From: Corynebacterium terpenotabidum Y-11
Lineage (GTDB): Bacteria; Actinomycetota; Actinomycetes; Mycobacteriales; Mycobacteriaceae
Direction of reading: 5' to 3'
Assembly: GCF_000418365.1 (NCBI RefSeq)
Contig: NC_021663.1
Location: 2,542,001 to 2,606,000 of the forward strand
Length of the DNA stretch: 64,000 nt
The notes beneath the pieces are model-generated. The model saw only the letters and a list, made by a program, of their open reading frames with translations, was not told where the DNA came from and ran no database searches. The translations under genes and the position numbers were made by a program. Positions 39,056-46,214 of the stretch are shown in pieces (position 1 is the stretch's first letter; each line of letters opens with the position of its first letter).

Positions 39056-41953
39056 CTAGTCGTGGCGCGTCTGCGGCCCCACGTCCGCCAGGTACCCGAA
39101 CAGCCCCGGTTCAACGGCGTGGTCCAGGACCAACTTCATGTTGACGATCGGGACGTCCTCGCCCTTGTCGTCGATGATGTGCGTGTCCCGCGCCCCGCGA
39201 GCCTTCGCCTCACCGAGGTAGAAGAAGTCCGCGCCGTCACCATCACTTTTCTTCACGAAGACGTGCAGTGGGAACAGATTATTGGCGATGTCATGCTCCC
39301 GCGTGCTGCTCAAGGACGTCCTGCTCTTCGTGAACCAGTTGATCGTCCCCTCACTATCGAAGCCGTCCTCATACTGCGTCGTCGCCGAGATGTCCTCCGC
39401 CTTGTCATGCGTAATGAAGATCGGGCACGTCCCCGAGAACTTGTCAGTCTTGTAGCCATACATGGTGCTGTACTGGTTCGATTCAAAGTTCAGCAGCCGG
39501 CATACGTCCTTGCGTGTGTACTGATGCCCCACGACCAACTGACCCGTCCATGACTCGTCATGCCGAGCGAGATACAGCGCCGTCTCGACTGCGTCATCCA
39601 CATGGTCGGCGAACATCCCTCCTTCCTTGTACAGCCGCCCGAACACGTCAGTGAGGACGTACTGCCCATCCTCAACCCGCATCACCGGATGCGGACCGTA
39701 CTTCTTCAGCTCAGCCTCCGTAAAGAACTCCAGCGTGAGAATCCGCTCAACCGAGGCCACTGTCGCGTCATCCCAAACACATCCATTGGCCCGCAACAGC
39801 GCCCGGTAGTCCTCCCGAGACATCGTCCCTCGCTGCACCAACGCCTGGACCAGCAGCATCTCCTGTGGACGCTTCCCGTTGAGGAGCTCACTGTCCAGCA
39901 ACGCAAGGTAGGCAGCTTCCTCCGTCGTCGGAGCCACGCTCTCCATCTTGGTGTGGCACAAGAAGCTCCAGTAGCTCTTCTTGTTCGACGCGATGACCAC
40001 CGGGTCCACCGTGTGGAACCGTGCGAAGTCAATGAGCATCGGCAGCGTCCCCAGCCGGAACTCCAGGTCGCGCACCGCCTTCTTGAGGTTCGGCATCGAG
40101 TCCAGCTTCTCCGACTGGAGAGACTTCAACACCCGATGCCGAGAGACCTCATCAAAGCTCACGCTGGAAACCCCGGCGATCACGCCGGTGGTCTGGGCGT
40201 TAATCAGCTTCTCCTTGATGGCGTCCTTGTTGAGACTGCTATCGCCGAACAGTGCAATGGGGATGAGGAAATTGTTCTTGTAGTTGCCGATGAAGTCGAT
40301 GACGCGCAGGTGGTCCTTGCCCGGAGCTTTACGCAGGCCGCGTCCGAGCTGCTGAGTGAAGATGATGCTGGACTCGGTGTTTCGCAGCATCACCACCTGG
40401 TTCACCGCGGGGATGTCGATACCCTCATTGAAGATGTCGCGGGTGAGGATGTAGTCAAGGTTCCCCAGTTCAAGCTCCCGCATCGCAGTCTCTCGCTCTG
40501 CAGACGTCGAATCACCAGTCAGCGCAACGGTCCTCAGACGCCGACCGTTGAGCTCCTGCTGATTGAACAGATCCGAGAGCTCATGGGCTTCCTGCGCACC
40601 CGAGCAGAACATCAAGCCCTTGACATCCCTCGGGAAACCATAGGTACGCAGCATCTCCAGGATGTAGCGCACCCGCTCCGGAGCCACGAGTTTCGCCAGG
40701 TCAGCAGTCGTATCCTTTGTCGAACCAGCCTCGTCGACGTACTCCTTTACCCCGTAGTAGTCGAACGGGGTGAGCATGTCCGCTTCTAGTGCCGCCTGTA
40801 GTCGGATCTCATAGGGCACGTTGTAGTCGAAAATCTCAAAGACATTGGCGTCATCGGTACGTTCCGGAGTCGCCGTCAGCCCCAAGAGGAACGCTGGCTG
40901 GAAGTGCTCGATGATCCGCTGGTACCCGTCACCACCCGCCCGGTGGACCTCGTCAATGATGATGAGATCGAAGGCATCCGGAGGCAGAGACGCCAATGTT
41001 TCTGGCCGGGCCAACGTCTGCTGCATCGCAAAGAGATACCGCCGATCGGTCTGCCGGTCGGCACCAACGAGGCGTCCTACGTCAGCGTCCTCGGCGTCCA
41101 ACACCACCTGGAACTCGCTCATCGCCTTGGTGAGGATCTGCTCACGGTGCACGATGAAGAGCATCCGCGCCGGATCAATCTCGCGGGCAGCGAGCGCGGC
41201 AAGAATGGTCTTGCCCGTCCCCGTCGCGGAAACCACCAGGGCACGACGCTCCCCCGCCTCACGTATTTTGCGGATCTCAGCCAGGGCTTCGCGTTGCATC
41301 GAGTTCGGCTCGATGCGCCCCGAGGGTGCGTCCCCCGCGTCGATGGCCGCCAGAGTATCCGGTGTAACTCTCGGCTGCCGGGTGCGCTCGTACTCGTCGA
41401 TCCACGCCTCGGTCAACGGGAAACTCTCGGAACGCTGCTGGTTGATGGCGTCCTCAAGCTGATAGGTGATGTCACCCTCAGGCAGCGCCGAGAACCGGAG
41501 GTTCCATTCCTTGTTGACCGTCAGCGCATTCAACGTGAAGTTCGAACTGCCGATAATGGCCGACCGGCTGTCACCCTGGGTGAAGACGTACCCCTTGGCG
41601 TGGAATCCACCGTGCGTCCCCGGATGGATGTACACCTCGACGTTGTCCAGGGTGAGCAGTTCACGGAACATATTCGGCTCGTTGAAGTCGAGGTACGTCG
41701 ACGTGATGATCGTCGCCGCGCCCTGGAAGTCCACCAGCGCCTGCTTCAACAGGCCGAGCGCGCTCGCGCTGAGGAAAGCGACGGAGAAGTCGAAGCGATC
41801 GGAGCGCCCCAGCTCCTCCTTGATCGCCCGGACCATGGTGTTGTCCTGGTCATTGACGATCAGGCGCGGGTGATGCAGCTGGTCTGCGGGCAACCTCCGG
41901 TCAAGGAATCCGAACGCAGTACCCGCTCCGACCGGACTGTTCGCGAAGGTCAT
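39056..41953 (-). CDS. PLD-nuclease/superfamily II helicase fusion (DUF3427 type)
   Basis: A 965-residue protein. Residues 1-190 form a phospholipase D-like domain with one HxK motif (GGFHAKGYVF, then IIGSSNFTLNALTVN). Residues about 215-600 are a helicase core: Walker A VVSATGTGKT, DEVH box IIIDEVHRAGG, motif III LLGLTATPERTDD, and motif VI FTQQLGRGLRKAPGK. The C-terminal 350 residues fit DUF3427, including QYTRKDVCRLLNFESNQYST and CPIFITHDKAEDISATTQYE. Such proteins sit in defence and repair islands and may cut or remodel foreign or damaged DNA. The stop-start overlap with the NUDIX gene upstream indicates coupled expression. Confidence 0.9.
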   Translation of the reverse strand: MTFANSPVGAGTAFGFLDRRLPADQLHHPRLIVNDQDNTMVRAIKEELGRSDRFDFSVAFLSASALGLLKQALVDFQGAATIITSTYLDFNEPNMFRELLTLDNVEVYIHPGTHGGFHAKGYVFTQGDSRSAIIGSSNFTLNALTVNKEWNLRFSALPEGDITYQLEDAINQQRSESFPLTEAWIDEYERTRQPRVTPDTLAAIDAGDAPSGRIEPNSMQREALAEIRKIREAGERRALVVSATGTGKTILAALAAREIDPARMLFIVHREQILTKAMSEFQVVLDAEDADVGRLVGADRQTDRRYLFAMQQTLARPETLASLPPDAFDLIIIDEVHRAGGDGYQRIIEHFQPAFLLGLTATPERTDDANVFEIFDYNVPYEIRLQAALEADMLTPFDYYGVKEYVDEAGSTKDTTADLAKLVAPERVRYILEMLRTYGFPRDVKGLMFCSGAQEAHELSDLFNQQELNGRRLRTVALTGDSTSAERETAMRELELGNLDYILTRDIFNEGIDIPAVNQVVMLRNTESSIIFTQQLGRGLRKAPGKDHLRVIDFIGNYKNNFLIPIALFGDSSLNKDAIKEKLINAQTTGVIAGVSSVSFDEVSRHRVLKSLQSEKLDSMPNLKKAVRDLEFRLGTLPMLIDFARFHTVDPVVIASNKKSYWSFLCHTKMESVAPTTEEAAYLALLDSELLNGKRPQEMLLVQALVQRGTMSREDYRALLRANGCVWDDATVASVERILTLEFFTEAELKKYGPHPVMRVEDGQYVLTDVFGRLYKEGGMFADHVDDAVETALYLARHDESWTGQLVVGHQYTRKDVCRLLNFESNQYSTMYGYKTDKFSGTCPIFITHDKAEDISATTQYEDGFDSEGTINWFTKSRTSLSSTREHDIANNLFPLHVFVKKSDGDGADFFYLGEAKARGARDTHIIDDKGEDVPIVNMKLVLDHAVEPGLFGYLADVGPQTRHD

Positions 41954-42348
41954 GCGGCGAAGTGCGCGGTCACAAGATCCACCGCCGGAACATCGGCAGG
42001 GGCCCAGGGAAGTTCACTGAGGGACGCTGCCTCCACCCATCGCACCTCGGCGTGCTCGGTGAGCGTGGGGGCCTGGTCCACGATGGTGCCGAAGAACGTG
42101 GTGAGGATGACAATGCCGAAGTCATACTCGTGCTCCGTGGTCGTCACCTTGTCGCCGATCTCCGCGGTGCAGAGCAGTTCTTCCTGTAGTTCTCGGCGCA
42201 GTGCCTGCTGCGGAGTTTCGCCCTGCTCGATCTTGCCGCCGGGGAACTCCCACAGCCCGGCCAGCGACATGCCCTCCCCGCGCTGGGCCGCGAGAACCTT
42301 AGTGCCCTCCGTGAGAACTGCCCCAACAACGTTGATCCGCTTCTTCAT
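41950..42348 (-). CDS. NUDIX nucleoside triphosphate diphosphatase (MutT-like)
   Basis: A 132-residue NUDIX hydrolase. The Nudix box is GGKIEQGETPQQALRRELQE followed by EL, matching Gx5Ex7REUXEEXGU except for a Leu at the last glycine position. The AAQRGEGMSLAGLWEFPGGK region is typical of 8-oxo-dGTP/CTP pyrophosphohydrolases. ATG 42348 is chosen because upstream codons lack family similarity. Its last bases overlap the helicase start (41950-41953). Pairing with a DUF3427 helicase suggests nucleotide-pool sanitation or a signalling-nucleotide role in the same system, beyond general housekeeping MutT activity. Confidence 0.85.
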   Translation of the reverse strand: MKKRINVVGAVLTEGTKVLAAQRGEGMSLAGLWEFPGGKIEQGETPQQALRRELQEELLCTAEIGDKVTTTEHEYDFGIVILTTFFGTIVDQAPTLTEHAEVRWVEAASLSELPWAPADVPAVDLVTAHFAA

Positions 42349-42401: not shown

Positions 42402-42572
42402 ATGGACATCGACGCCGCCATCCACAGCTCCATACAGGCCTATGCTGCCCACCGTGACGCGGTCGCGGTCCGAGAGGAATCCGGGCACTGGATACCACCG
42501 GATACCTGGGCCGACCTGGGAGACGAAGCACGGGCCATCGTGGATACCCTTGCCGAAGAGCTCGCCGAGTGA
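42402..42572 (+). CDS. hypothetical small acidic protein
   Basis: A 56-codon frame encoding MDIDAAIHSSIQAYAAHRDA and ending DTLAEELAE. Composition is acidic and helical, third positions are GC-rich, and a plausible leaderless promoter precedes it. No family is recognised. It lies between the divergent NUDIX gene and the palindrome array, so it could be an antitoxin-like or regulatory partner of the AlbA_2 protein, but it could also be a chance frame. Confidence 0.45.
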   Translation: MDIDAAIHSSIQAYAAHRDAVAVREESGHWIPPDTWADLGDEARAIVDTLAEELAE

Positions 42573-42642
42573 ACACCAGCGTGTGCATCTGGAATTACTC
42601 CCCGGACCGACCTCGACTGCGTTGAGTGACTGTCAGTGCCAC

Positions 42643-42762
42643 TCACTGCCACAGACTGCCGCTCACTCGCATCAGTGACAGCGTCACTGTATACAGTGAC
42701 GACCTCACTTTCTACAGTGATAGCCTCAGTTTCTACAGTGAGGACGTCACTGATGTACAGTG
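42643..42762. promoter_or_regulatory. array of six palindromic sites with 21-bp period, upstream of AlbA_2 gene
   Basis: Sites start at 42643, 42663, 42684, 42705, 42726 and 42747, each fitting TCACT-N6-AGTGA. The third, TCACTGTATACAGTGA, is a perfect 16-bp palindrome; the others differ mainly in the centre, the first in its right half, and the last has a one-base-longer spacer. The 21-bp step is two helical turns, so proteins would bind the same DNA face. A related array follows the gene at 44597-44676. The likely role is cooperative (auto)repression; replication iterons or a transposon-end array are alternatives. Confidence 0.8.
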
Positions 42763-42796
42763 GCCGCATCACTGGTGCACCACCAGTCACCACGAA

Positions 42797-44551
42797 ATGA
42801 GACTCACTGTGACCACGCCCCCCACAACGCCGACACCATCCACCTTTGAGGAGCACCTGGCCAGGCTCCGCACCCAGGGCCGCGACGACGAACAAGTCGA
42901 GGTCAAGGAGCTGGTCCTCTCACCCGGTGAGAAAAGCCGGAAGAGCTCCGACGTGGTCAGTCTGTGGGAATCAGTCAGTGCCTTCGCCAATACCCACGGC
43001 GGCCTGCTCTTCCTCGGCCTCCGGGAAAAGTCCGGATTCACTCCTGCCCCCGGGTTCGACGCTACGGCGGTCATCGACCTCATTCACCAGGGACTCAACC
43101 CCACGGACCGCACCGGACTGAAGGTGACACCGGTACCCGAGTACTCCATCACCACCCAGCAAGTCGACGATGCGCCGGTTGTCGTCCTGACCGTCCATGC
43201 GCTGTCCGTCAACGGGCCGTGCCATCTTCCGCAGAAAGGCATCGCCAACGGCAGCTTCAAACGTGTGGGAGACGCCGACCGGAAGCTCACCACGTTCGAG
43301 GTCTATGAGCTGCAGCACCGGTTCGACCAGCTCACCACTGACGCTGAGCCTGTTCCGGGGACGAGCGTCGACGATCTCGACCAGGAACTTCTGGCGGATG
43401 TCCGTGGACATCTGAAGGCGTCTGGGAGCCGGGCCGTGGCCACCGCCGACGACCGGTGGCTGCGGTACCTCAACATCACCACCGATTCTGGGGAACTCAC
43501 CCTCGCCGGGCTCCTCGCCCTCGGCACCTACCCTCAGCAGTACTTTCCTCGGCTATTCATCGACGTCGCCGTCCATCCCGGCCTGACGAAGGGGACGACA
43601 GCGGATGCTCGGTTCCTGGATCGTCGGCTGTGCGACGGAAACCTGCAGGCGATGATGCAGGATTCCCTGCTGGCGATTCGTCAGAACCTCCGGGTCCGCC
43701 GCATCATCACCGGGGCACGCGGGATCGACGTCCTGGAGATTCCGGAAGACGTGTTGCGCGAAGCACTCGCCAACGCTGTCATGCACCGTGACTACTCACC
43801 GATGGCTCTCGGTAGTGAGATCAACGTCGACGTCTTTCCCGACAGGGTGGAGATCACCAGCCCAGGCGGTTTTCCCGGAGCCAAGTCCGCAGATCCGACA
43901 TCACTCATCGACGGGATCCCCGCGGCCCGGAATCGCCTGCTCACCCGACTACTTGCCGAAGTTCCTTGGCCCGACAACGCCGGCGGCGTCCTCGCGGAAA
44001 GCAACGGCTCGGGCATCCCCCGGATGTTCGCAGCCATGCAAGACGCCGGTCTCCTCGTCCCCGAGTACGACGTAGACATCGCCCGGGTGAAAGTCACGCT
44101 CCGCCGGTTCGGCCTTGTGGAACCGGACACCCGGGACTGGCTCACCGTCCGGCTCGGCGAAGGCTACACTCCTGCGCAAGGCATCGCGATGGTCCTGGCC
44201 CGGGACCTGGGGACCGTCAGCGTGTCCGACCTGCGGACACAGACGGGAAAGGACAGCGACGTTCTCCGCGCTCTCCTCACCGCACTCAGGGACCGTGGGT
44301 GCCTGGTGGAAATCTCCCCCGACCACTTCCGCCTGCCGGCACCGGCCGGCAGTCTCACCGGCGTCAAGCAGGTGGTCCTCGACGTCCTTTCCACCACCAC
44401 CGCGCAGTCCACCCGTGAGATCTCCGCCGCCACCGGACGCTCGGTGAATGCGCTTCGCCCCGTACTCCGTGAACTGGTGGACGCCGGTCTTGTCACACCT
44501 ACAGCCCCGCCGACCAGCCGCAACCGGAAGTATCTCCTGGCCGGGAAGTGA
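42797..44551 (+). CDS. AlbA_2 (Schlafen-like) / HATPase_c_4 putative transcriptional regulator
   Basis: A protein of about 584 residues. The N-terminal AlbA_2 domain (roughly residues 15-130) contains QVEVKELVLSPGEKSRKSSD and LWESVSAFANTHGGLLFLGL. The central region is a GHKL-like ATPase: LREALANAVMHRDYS and VEITSPGGFPGAK, with NGSGIPRMFAAM as the second ATP motif. The last 180 residues hold winged-helix-like repeats (VSVSDLRTQTGKDSDVLRAL and STREISAATGRSVNALRPVL). This is the architecture annotated as ATP-dependent DNA-binding regulators, some linked to phage defence. The start is uncertain: ATG 42797 is used, GTG 42626 would run through the palindrome array. Arrays on both sides suggest it binds them. 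Confidence 0.82.
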   Translation: MRLTVTTPPTTPTPSTFEEHLARLRTQGRDDEQVEVKELVLSPGEKSRKSSDVVSLWESVSAFANTHGGLLFLGLREKSGFTPAPGFDATAVIDLIHQGLNPTDRTGLKVTPVPEYSITTQQVDDAPVVVLTVHALSVNGPCHLPQKGIANGSFKRVGDADRKLTTFEVYELQHRFDQLTTDAEPVPGTSVDDLDQELLADVRGHLKASGSRAVATADDRWLRYLNITTDSGELTLAGLLALGTYPQQYFPRLFIDVAVHPGLTKGTTADARFLDRRLCDGNLQAMMQDSLLAIRQNLRVRRIITGARGIDVLEIPEDVLREALANAVMHRDYSPMALGSEINVDVFPDRVEITSPGGFPGAKSADPTSLIDGIPAARNRLLTRLLAEVPWPDNAGGVLAESNGSGIPRMFAAMQDAGLLVPEYDVDIARVKVTLRRFGLVEPDTRDWLTVRLGEGYTPAQGIAMVLARDLGTVSVSDLRTQTGKDSDVLRALLTALRDRGCLVEISPDHFRLPAPAGSLTGVKQVVLDVLSTTTAQSTREISAATGRSVNALRPVLRELVDAGLVTPTAPPTSRNRKYLLAGK

Positions 44552-44596
44552 CCGGATCCGGCACGGTCACCCGCCGCATTCACTCCGCACTGCCAC

Positions 44597-44676
44597 TCAC
44601 TCATGTCAGTGACAGCGTCACTGTATACAGTGACAGCCTCAGTTTCTACAGTGAGGACGTCACTGATCTACAGTGA
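44597..44676. promoter_or_regulatory. array of four palindromic sites with 21-bp period, downstream of AlbA_2 gene
   Basis: Sites start at 44597, 44618, 44639 and 44660. The second is identical to the perfect palindrome of the upstream array and the third (TCAGTTTCTACAGTGA) is identical to an upstream copy, in the same order and spacing, so the array is a direct repeat of the upstream one minus one central unit. It lies between the AlbA_2 stop and the convergent MFS gene. Confidence 0.8.
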
Positions 44677-44750
44677 CGACGCGTCCCAACGTCCAGCGGA
44701 CGACCCGAGACCTCCGTCCATACCCGGCGAAACGGGCGGCACTGAGTCAA

Positions 44751-46214
44751 CTACCCCCGCACCCGCAGCGGCATCTTCTTCGCGAACCCCAGCCCCACGC
44801 ACATCACCGCACCCAGTGCCACGATGACCCACCCGATGAGGTGCAGCCCCGCGTCGGTTGCCCCATCGGTCGCCGCGGCGTCCCCCGAATCCGCCCCGGA
44901 TCCGGCACCGATACTCATGCACAACGCCACGATCACCGCCGACAGATTCGCGGCGATGTACTGCATCGTCTTGTAGATCCCCGTCGCCGTCCCAACCTTC
45001 TCCACCGAGGTCACCGTATTGATCAGTGCCTGATTGCCGATGTTGTTGAACCCGTTCGGCACACCGGCGACAAGCGCCACGGCCACGAGCACCCACACCG
45101 GAGACCCACTGCCCTCCACCAGCGCGACCAGCAACCCGGTGATCACGAGGAACCCGCCGCCGACCGCCAGCGTCACCCGCGGTCCCCGGACCGTCAGCAC
45201 GCGGGCCGCCACGAACGTCGACGCCACCGACACCACCGCCATCGGGAACATCAGTGCACCGGCCTGCGATGTCGAAAAACCCGCGCCCTGTTCGAACCAC
45301 TGCGGCAGCCCGTAGTACAGGCAGTAGAAGGACGCGTAGGTCAGCACCGTGCGTCCCAGGGTGTTCGCCAACTGCCGGTTCTCCGCCACCGCGCGCAGAT
45401 CGATGAAGGGCACCGGGGCCTGCTGCAGCTCCCACCAGGCCCACACCGCCGCGATCACGACCACCACCGGCACCAGCCACCACAGGGGTTCACCGGTCAA
45501 CGACAACAGACAGACCATGAGCACGGTGACAGTGGCACCGAACAGCAGCGCACCGACAAGGTCGAGGCGCCGCACCAGACCCATCTCGGGCCGACCCTCC
45601 CCGTCGATATGCGGCACCTGCCACATCACCCACGCCCAGGACAGTGCCACGAGCAGCACATTGATCCACAACGTGGCCTGCCAGCCCGCCACCCCGACGA
45701 GCAGGCCGCCGAGCGACGGCCCGACCGCGCTCATCGACTGACCGCACACCGTCAGCGTGGAGATCGCCGAGGTTGTGCGGTAGCGGTGACGCCGTGCCAG
45801 CACCCGGATGATCGTCATGGCGTTCGGCATCTGGGCCGCCACACCGACACCGATAAGAAGGCGTCCGGCAACGAGGACGCCGAGATTCGGGGCGAGTGCC
45901 CCGAGGACCGAACCGATGAGAACGAGCCCCAGCCCGGCGAGGTAGACCCGCCGCGCACCGAACACCACACCGAGGACACCGGCCATCGGGGACACGATCG
46001 CGGTGGCGATGTAGAACGCCGACAGGACCCAGGAGACCTCGGTACCGGCGCCGAAGTGGTGTCCGATGGAGACGATCGCCACGGCGATCATCGAGGAGTT
46101 CAGTGCCTGCAGCATCACCCCGGATCCGAGGGCGAGACGGACCGGGGCGGGGACATCAGTGAACGGCCGGTCTGACGGTTCGGGTTGTTCAGCGGGACGG
46201 AGAGAGCTGTTCAC
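44751..46214 (-). CDS. MFS drug/solute exporter (DHA2-like, 14 TM)
   Basis: A 487-residue major facilitator protein. The order of hydrophobic helices fits the 14-helix DHA2 group; motif A-like loops (LGVVFGARRVYLAGL) and the motif C region near SMSAVGPSLGGLLVG are present, and GFNNIGNQALINTVTSVEKV marks the later half. The start is GTG 46214: upstream codons are arginine-rich and non-conserved, and a TAGGGT box lies 8 bases before it. Cargo unknown. It is not evidently linked to the AlbA_2 system beyond being convergent with it. Confidence 0.85.
   Translation of the reverse strand: MNSSLRPAEQPEPSDRPFTDVPAPVRLALGSGVMLQALNSSMIAVAIVSIGHHFGAGTEVSWVLSAFYIATAIVSPMAGVLGVVFGARRVYLAGLGLVLIGSVLGALAPNLGVLVAGRLLIGVGVAAQMPNAMTIIRVLARRHRYRTTSAISTLTVCGQSMSAVGPSLGGLLVGVAGWQATLWINVLLVALSWAWVMWQVPHIDGEGRPEMGLVRRLDLVGALLFGATVTVLMVCLLSLTGEPLWWLVPVVVVIAAVWAWWELQQAPVPFIDLRAVAENRQLANTLGRTVLTYASFYCLYYGLPQWFEQGAGFSTSQAGALMFPMAVVSVASTFVAARVLTVRGPRVTLAVGGGFLVITGLLVALVEGSGSPVWVLVAVALVAGVPNGFNNIGNQALINTVTSVEKVGTATGIYKTMQYIAANLSAVIVALCMSIGAGSGADSGDAAATDGATDAGLHLIGWVIVALGAVMCVGLGFAKKMPLRVRG

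Follow-up and report, generated by a model that had tools for sequence, protein, structure and literature searches.

An operator-like palindrome array at the putative promoter of a SLFN_AlbA_2/HATPase_c_4 gene of Corynebacterium terpenotabidum and its probable duplicate downstream

The window, that is the whole stretch of 64,000 nucleotides of Corynebacterium terpenotabidum Y-11 DNA that was analysed, encodes on its forward strand a 584-residue protein (42797..44551, counted from the ATG at 42797) that Pfam, an AlphaFold model and structure matches identify as a SLFN_AlbA_2/HATPase_c_4 protein with two C-terminal winged helices. Where translation starts is uncertain, as the frame opens at a GTG at 42626 and the GTG at 42809 is another possible start. 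The SLFN_AlbA_2 domain (PF04326, E 1.5e-9) covers residues 31-164 (42887..43288, forward strand) and the HATPase_c_4 domain (PF13749, E 7.4e-20) residues 339-435 (43811..44101, forward strand), both scoring above the gathering cut-off (38.9 bits against 25.3 and 71.2 against 26, respectively). These were the only domains in the Pfam scan, which found no recombinase, transposase, HUH (Y1), reverse transcriptase or integrase domain, and an NCBIfam search gave no match at E<=0.001. The AlphaFold model (mean pLDDT 91.3, pTM 0.83; 72 sequences) shows two tandem winged helices at the C-terminus, placed by its predicted secondary structure at about residues 443-512 and 516-584 (44123..44548, forward strand); the second has structure matches to many winged-helix regulators. 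The AlbA_2 residues D30, E35, K37 and E77 and the GHKL-type residues E322, N326, G357, G404 and G406, whose functional roles are presumed, show no variation or >=90% conservation across the 72 sequences. D30 and E35 align with E and E in the ESTHVEIK stretch of SLFN12, positions that we take to be catalytic in Schlafens.

The closest homologs are two metagenome proteins with 81-82% identity, and the closest with species names are Corynebacterium proteins; C. glutamicum is among the species with a homolog. Database names within the family include ATP-binding protein, RecG-like helicase, divergent AAA and transcriptional regulator, and no settled function of the SLFN_AlbA_2/HATPase_c_4 family was found in the open-access literature. 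The top structure match is DIP2311 of C. diphtheriae (PDB 3LMM), for which no accompanying paper was found in the open-access literature. At 20-23% identity, its rmsd to the window protein is about 16 A over the whole chain, so either the domain arrangement of DIP2311 differs or the alignment is mixed. A viral structure library returned weak partial matches only, and PADLOC matched the protein to Argonaute-type models only (pAgo at 2.2e-11, with two SIR2-type models weaker).

Two arrays of the palindromic unit TCAST-N6-ASTGA flank this gene, one on each side. The upstream, operator-like array (42663..42763, forward strand) lies at the putative promoter of the AlbA_2 gene and has five units in a 21-bp register, beginning at 42663 (TCACTCGCATCAGTGA), 42684 (TCACTGTATACAGTGA, a perfect palindrome), 42705 (TCACTTTCTACAGTGA) and 42726 (TCAGTTTCTACAGTGA) and closing with the gene-proximal unit at 42747..42763 (TCACTGATGTACAGTGg), whose spacer is one base longer and whose last base is off. 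The downstream array (44597..44676, forward strand) is a near copy with four units as against five; these, at 44597, 44618, 44639 and 44660..44676 (TCACTGATCTACAGTGA), keep the order and orientation seen upstream, and the last again has the longer spacer. Throughout both arrays the half-sites TCAST and ASTGA alternate with a step of 10-11 bp. The initial annotation had counted six upstream and four downstream copies; the four stand, while the upstream count falls to five because 42643 and 42769 hold single TCACT half-sites only. Its description of a 21-bp spacing, a common internal order and a longer-spacer unit in last place fits both arrays. Since 21 is a multiple of 3, an open frame runs through the upstream array from the GTG at 42626 (42626-42797); it reads as a heptad-like peptide (SVTVYSD, DLTFYSD, SLSFYSE) that is probably not translated.

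The window holds seven TCAST-N6-ASTGA sites, every one of them inside the two arrays. In 200 dinucleotide shuffles of the window the mean was 0.125 and the maximum two, with never more than one site per 100 nt. The earlier claim that the array exceeds an ordinary operator is supported. When two mismatches to TCACT-N6-AGTGA are allowed the window is not enriched (20 sites against 17.2 expected), and the signal is therefore the clustering of sites. Genome-wide, exact TCACT-N6-AGTGA occurs at eight places in the 2.75-Mb genome, five of them within the two arrays, and the reversed control pattern at two. The two-unit pattern occurs at five places, all in the two arrays, and its control at none; a scattering of such arrays over the genome, named at the outset as the finding that would speak against an operator, is thus not what the motif scan gave.

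The longer-spacer unit has a preferred position. Within the window's subfamily of homologs it is the last unit before the gene in nine of 10 cases, as against 15 of 59 normal units (Fisher p=1.8e-4). The gene-proximal unit of the window contains TACAGT at 42756-42761, which appears to fit TANNNT, presumably the -10 element of Corynebacterium promoters. TANNNT is present in seven of nine last longer-spacer units, as well as in some inner units, and an in-frame ATG follows the longer-spacer unit by 4-6 nt at four of nine loci. Given this ATG distance and TANNNT, the longer-spacer unit plausibly overlaps the -10 region. A sigma-70 consensus promoter was not found in 42560-44800. The picture is one of repeated sites with helical phasing at what would be the regulator's own promoter.

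An upstream array is characteristic of the gene family rather than peculiar to this one locus. Homologs at E<=1e-20 occur in 132 of 242 genomes of the genus. We examined 138 homolog loci (L005-L142), taken from among the matches listed, with 30 from the first homolog search, 28 from the genus search and 80 fetched later; four are from outside the genus, and the fractions of loci given here refer to these 138 only. Partial-length matches were left out, as were various others, for instance those in G173 and G238 and extra copies in G009, G012, G036, G073, G160 and G190. Bit scores divide the loci into the window's subfamily (>350 bits, n=29), a next subfamily (180-235 bits, n=53) and others (n=56). 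Significant enrichment of a repeated 6-mer (p<=0.05, 200 shuffles) is seen in the 5' flank of 68 loci and is lacking in that of the other 70; the corresponding counts are 25 for the 3' flank and one and five for two stretches within the gene.

Subfamilies differ in both spacing and motif. The best repeat lag is 21 bp at 23 of 29 loci of the window's subfamily and 12 bp at 38 of 53 loci of the next, whose motifs differ from TCAST; 12 bp is also the best lag in 25 of 138 coding controls. Strong periodicity is seen at 17 of 29 and 16 of 53 loci, respectively, and in none of the 138 coding controls. The TCAST unit occurs at least twice at 18 of the 29 window-subfamily loci and at none of the 109 others; 11 of the 29 have fewer than two (none in five, one in six). 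Distances in the window's subfamily peak at 11 bp from TCAST to ASTGA and at 21, 42 and 63 bp from TCAST to TCAST, so the two-turn phasing on one helix face put forward in the initial annotation holds for this subfamily; it does not extend to the next one, with its 12-bp lag. By eye, several homologs from other families within the order likewise have arrays on the 5' side, with different motifs. A rule that two winged helices go with 21 bp and one with 12 bp was considered, and L168-L172 (581-599 residues, about 12 bp by eye) seem not to fit it.

The array motif changes with the protein, not with the location. Among pairs of loci without similar neighbourhoods, the fraction sharing a repeated 6-mer rises from 0.03 at 20-30% protein identity to 0.21 at 40-50%, 0.37 at 60-75% and 0.75 above 75% (four pairs). 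At 40% identity or more and with different neighbourhoods it is 0.266 (1682 pairs), whereas permutations averaged 0.101 and reached at most 0.149. Among 27 pairs that have the same neighbourhood and are less than 50% identical, sharing is 0.11 at 20-30% identity (18 pairs) and 0 above (nine pairs). This comparison used the 131 of 138 loci in which a 6-mer was present three times or more, and its pairs are not independent. The tie of the motif to protein identity, irrespective of location, links the array to the AlbA_2 protein, as had been supposed from the window alone. Such tracking is what co-evolution between a protein and its binding site would predict. Motif and protein changing together also offer a natural set for the study of winged-helix specificity.

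Downstream copies are less regular. The 5' and 3' flanks of the same gene are alike (score >=60) at 44 of the 138 loci, compared with three of 400 random cross pairs, one of 131 outer-flank pairs and one of 138 within-gene pairs; among the order-wide loci none has an own-flank score >35. Forty of the 44 repeats are direct and four inverted, with a median identity of 94% and a median length of 71.5, and in 42 of 44 the 3' copy starts <=44 nt from the stop codon. They are found at three of 29 loci of the window's subfamily, 32 of 53 of the 12-bp subfamily and nine of 56 others. The three in the window's subfamily are the window, L039 and L006, a complete downstream array being confined to the window; the L039 repeat is apparently the neighbour's end plus one unit. 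The repeats of L006, L070 and L116 are neighbour or coding-like DNA and not arrays, and that of L088 includes the end of the upstream neighbour gene. Neighbour DNA of this kind within own-flank repeats is apparently a mark of segmental duplication. Where a site is common to two species, a locus's own two copies resemble each other more closely than cross-species copies do in 28 of 35 pairs, which are not independent; this likeness would be expected from gene conversion, from co-evolution with the protein or from the two combined, and in the 12-bp subfamily the likeness of both flanks could mean that the downstream array is functional. Several flanking repeats have forms of their own: L116 and L026 have the gene between direct repeats of 202 and 335 bp, that of L116 being coding-like; of L016 and L081, which occupy one site in two species, the former has its upstream array in the opposite orientation to the downstream array and the latter in the same orientation; and L020, L024, L030 and L129 carry CTACTxGAAAG-like arrays on both sides of the gene with a common inner stretch like GACCTGxxxATA.

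Arrays are also found without the gene. Two consecutive window-type units occur in 21 of 242 genus genomes, the control pattern in none. They lie beside a family gene in 13 genomes (in G229 the gene is N-terminally short) and without an intact family gene within 1.5 kb on either side in nine, G109 being in both groups. At one site, G183 and its relatives (L094, L096, L098, L101) have array-gene-array, whereas in G006 and G188 a lone array separates the same neighbours; likewise, G013 (L018) has array-gene-array where G137 has a single array between the same neighbours. These are three clean array-to-array solo cases at two sites, each with two arrays in the occupied relatives. Where the occupied relative lacks a downstream array, traces of the gene or a break near its end are seen: a remnant of residues about 372-484 in G170, remnants of residues 1-32 and about 350-434 in G160 and G161 (one site), 41-50 bp of the gene's 3' end in G153, and, in G217 and G005, a break that coincides with the stop codon or lies <=6 nt from it. 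Among 17 genomes searched with a profile, G188 has only a distant partial match (4.5e-12) and G006, G137 and G071 lack any family member at E<=0.001, so if the leftover arrays of these three are kept by selection, something else must bind them. Leftover arrays may serve as footprints of past carriage, and the array-gene-array, array-gene and solo-array states provide a way to study the loss of such a gene.

The direction of change can be addressed at the G183 site, where an unrooted tree of the flanks places both solo species next to occupied G206 (support 65 and 66); taking the other occupied species as outside, the tree weakly favours loss. At the window's own site, the NUDIX and MFS genes are 110 bp apart in G075 (L155), with neither array nor gene, and are separated by other genes in G024 and by 5.6 kb of other DNA in G258, with no TCAST units. 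No solo array was seen there in these three genomes, and the empty site in G075 shows no direction of change. One chromosomal site can hold different subfamilies, as the flanks of L206 match those of L056 and L057 and of L107, L108, L110 and L136, and members 27-31% and about 40% identical to the window protein occupy this site in different species. At L047, L048, L052, L053, L060 and L160, the gene or a solo array lies between two copies of GTTTCACGTGAAAC, which resembles what we take to be the consensus of the ParB site parS.

Taken together, the upstream array is probably an autoregulatory operator array of the encoded protein, and the downstream array its duplicate. In this subfamily the AlbA_2/GHKL/winged-helix protein would bind cooperatively to half-sites that follow each other at every helical turn and so share a single face of the DNA. 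Sitting on the upstream array it would cover its own promoter and thereby hold down its own level. A duplicated downstream array would then be a substrate for recombination, and leftover arrays would arise by recombination between the repeats where two exist and by other deletions where there is one. Since a likely DNA target can be read from the sequences of many members, binding, cooperativity and the role of ATP are directly testable. No paper about these arrays was found in the open-access literature, where most subscription papers are absent, and a comparable case is BldC of Streptomyces, whose winged-helix-type subunits are described as assembling cooperatively on promoter repeat arrays of varying number (PMC5859096). 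Cooperative assembly on a repeat array would be common to BldC and the window protein, as far as the latter can be predicted. In the account available, BldC is a 68-residue MerR-like pleiotropic regulator that binds head-to-tail direct repeats, whereas the window array has alternating inverted half-sites and is confined to its own locus (PMC5859096).

Other readings of the arrays are less probable. That they imply a loop was part of the initial annotation, and a protein bridging both arrays, with the gene held in a closed DNA loop or nucleoprotein stretch, would suit the arrays on both sides in the window, the frequency of own-flank repeats in the 12-bp subfamily, the closeness of the 3' copy to the stop codon and the continued likeness of a locus's two copies. 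However, a loop is not needed and duplication of the upstream array is the best account of the downstream one, because so few loci of the window's subfamily have own-flank repeats and the window alone has a whole downstream array; the neighbour DNA duplicated in some repeats likewise points to segmental duplication. We therefore regard bridging as unlikely, and looping is possible above all in the 12-bp subfamily. It is very unlikely that the array is instead a loading site, as parS is for ParB, on which the GHKL ATPase loads and then spreads or acts, promoter control being secondary. The sites are many more than a simple repressor needs, and the protein combines an ATP-binding domain with conserved motifs and a Schlafen-type AlbA_2 domain, but the arrays are placed where the gene's own promoter would be, and their longer-spacer unit is the one closest to the gene. 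That the arrays belong to some unrelated family of repeats, or are palindromes acting as RNA hairpins, seems extremely improbable. Palindromic units could fold in RNA; yet the variable bases of left and right half-sites change independently of each other (23 pairing, 15 not, Fisher p=1.0) and Rfam gave no match at gathering score, which makes RNA hairpins unlikely. The genome scan, with the two-unit pattern confined to this locus, and a motif that follows the protein disfavour a scattered repeat family.

LTR elements carry direct repeats around genes and leave solo LTRs at empty sites, and the array-gene-array and solo-array states resemble LTR and solo LTR; the analogy is one of states only, the window family having no reverse transcriptase or integrase domain. 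Pursuing it, one could see a new bacterial single-gene cassette, mobile or reversible, whose arrays act both as operator and as att-like or LTR-like ends for gain, loss and exchange, perhaps with the help of the AlbA_2/GHKL protein, and whose solo arrays are empty landing sites. We consider this quite unlikely. All of the array-gene-array, array-gene, solo-array and no-array states are seen, the solo sites are clean in three of three cases with a two-array occupied relative, and divergent members share one chromosomal site. On the other hand, loss is favoured, weakly, at the one site with a tree, the gene remnants at G160, G161 and G170 look like ordinary decay, the Pfam scan found no recombinase domain in the gene, no insertion event and no circle were observed, and plain homologous recombination would explain the clean cases. 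REPtrons, in which a single-copy RAYT (TnpA-REP) gene is bordered by cognate palindromic repeats, are similar to the window locus in having bordering palindromes around a single-copy gene (PMC8266576). They are described with an HUH transposase and genome-wide REPs, neither of which was found for the window gene (PMC8266576).

If the upstream array is an autoregulatory operator, a product harmful to the cell, as TrlG of Photorhabdus laumondii seems to be, would explain both tight self-control and frequent gene loss. TrlG has AlbA_2 and HATPase_c_4 in one protein and so has these two Pfam domains in common with the window protein; its gene is in the three-gene operon trlRFG between polA and dsbA, and trlG mutations allow Photorhabdus growth at 36 C (PMC7554251). 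The account available places trlG in that operon with no mention of an operator array, whereas the window gene has arrays (PMC7554251). With TrlG as model, our best guess for a role beyond self-control is a conditionally harmful or defence-related protein. The suggestion in the initial annotation that the neighbouring helicase and NUDIX genes are linked to defence finds agreement in PADLOC: at 39056-42345, the helicase with PLD-like, ResIII and DUF3427 domains matches mREase_IV (4.3e-213), and PDC-S07 is the model matched by its NUDIX neighbour (6.3e-51). These two genes next to the AlbA_2 gene form a candidate defence pair.

Distant homologs are present in 62 plasmid and 28 phage records, and in none of these records does a match cover 80% of the protein in one place. 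A search of viral contigs for close relatives of the window protein found none. Among named genomes there are 11 distant loci; that of Bowdeniella (L191) has an own-flank score of 58 (cut-off 60) and the remaining ten score <=26. Two phage homologs, gene 31 of Mycobacterium phage Squirty (L163) and gene 38 of Gordonia phage Eviarto (L164), are close to or adjoin integrase genes, and each carries a palindrome at its promoter; neither by eye nor with a repeat finder was an array found at these two. At L038 and L040, both 15-20 kb from the contig start, the AlbA_2 gene is followed immediately by tRNA-like genes (by eye).
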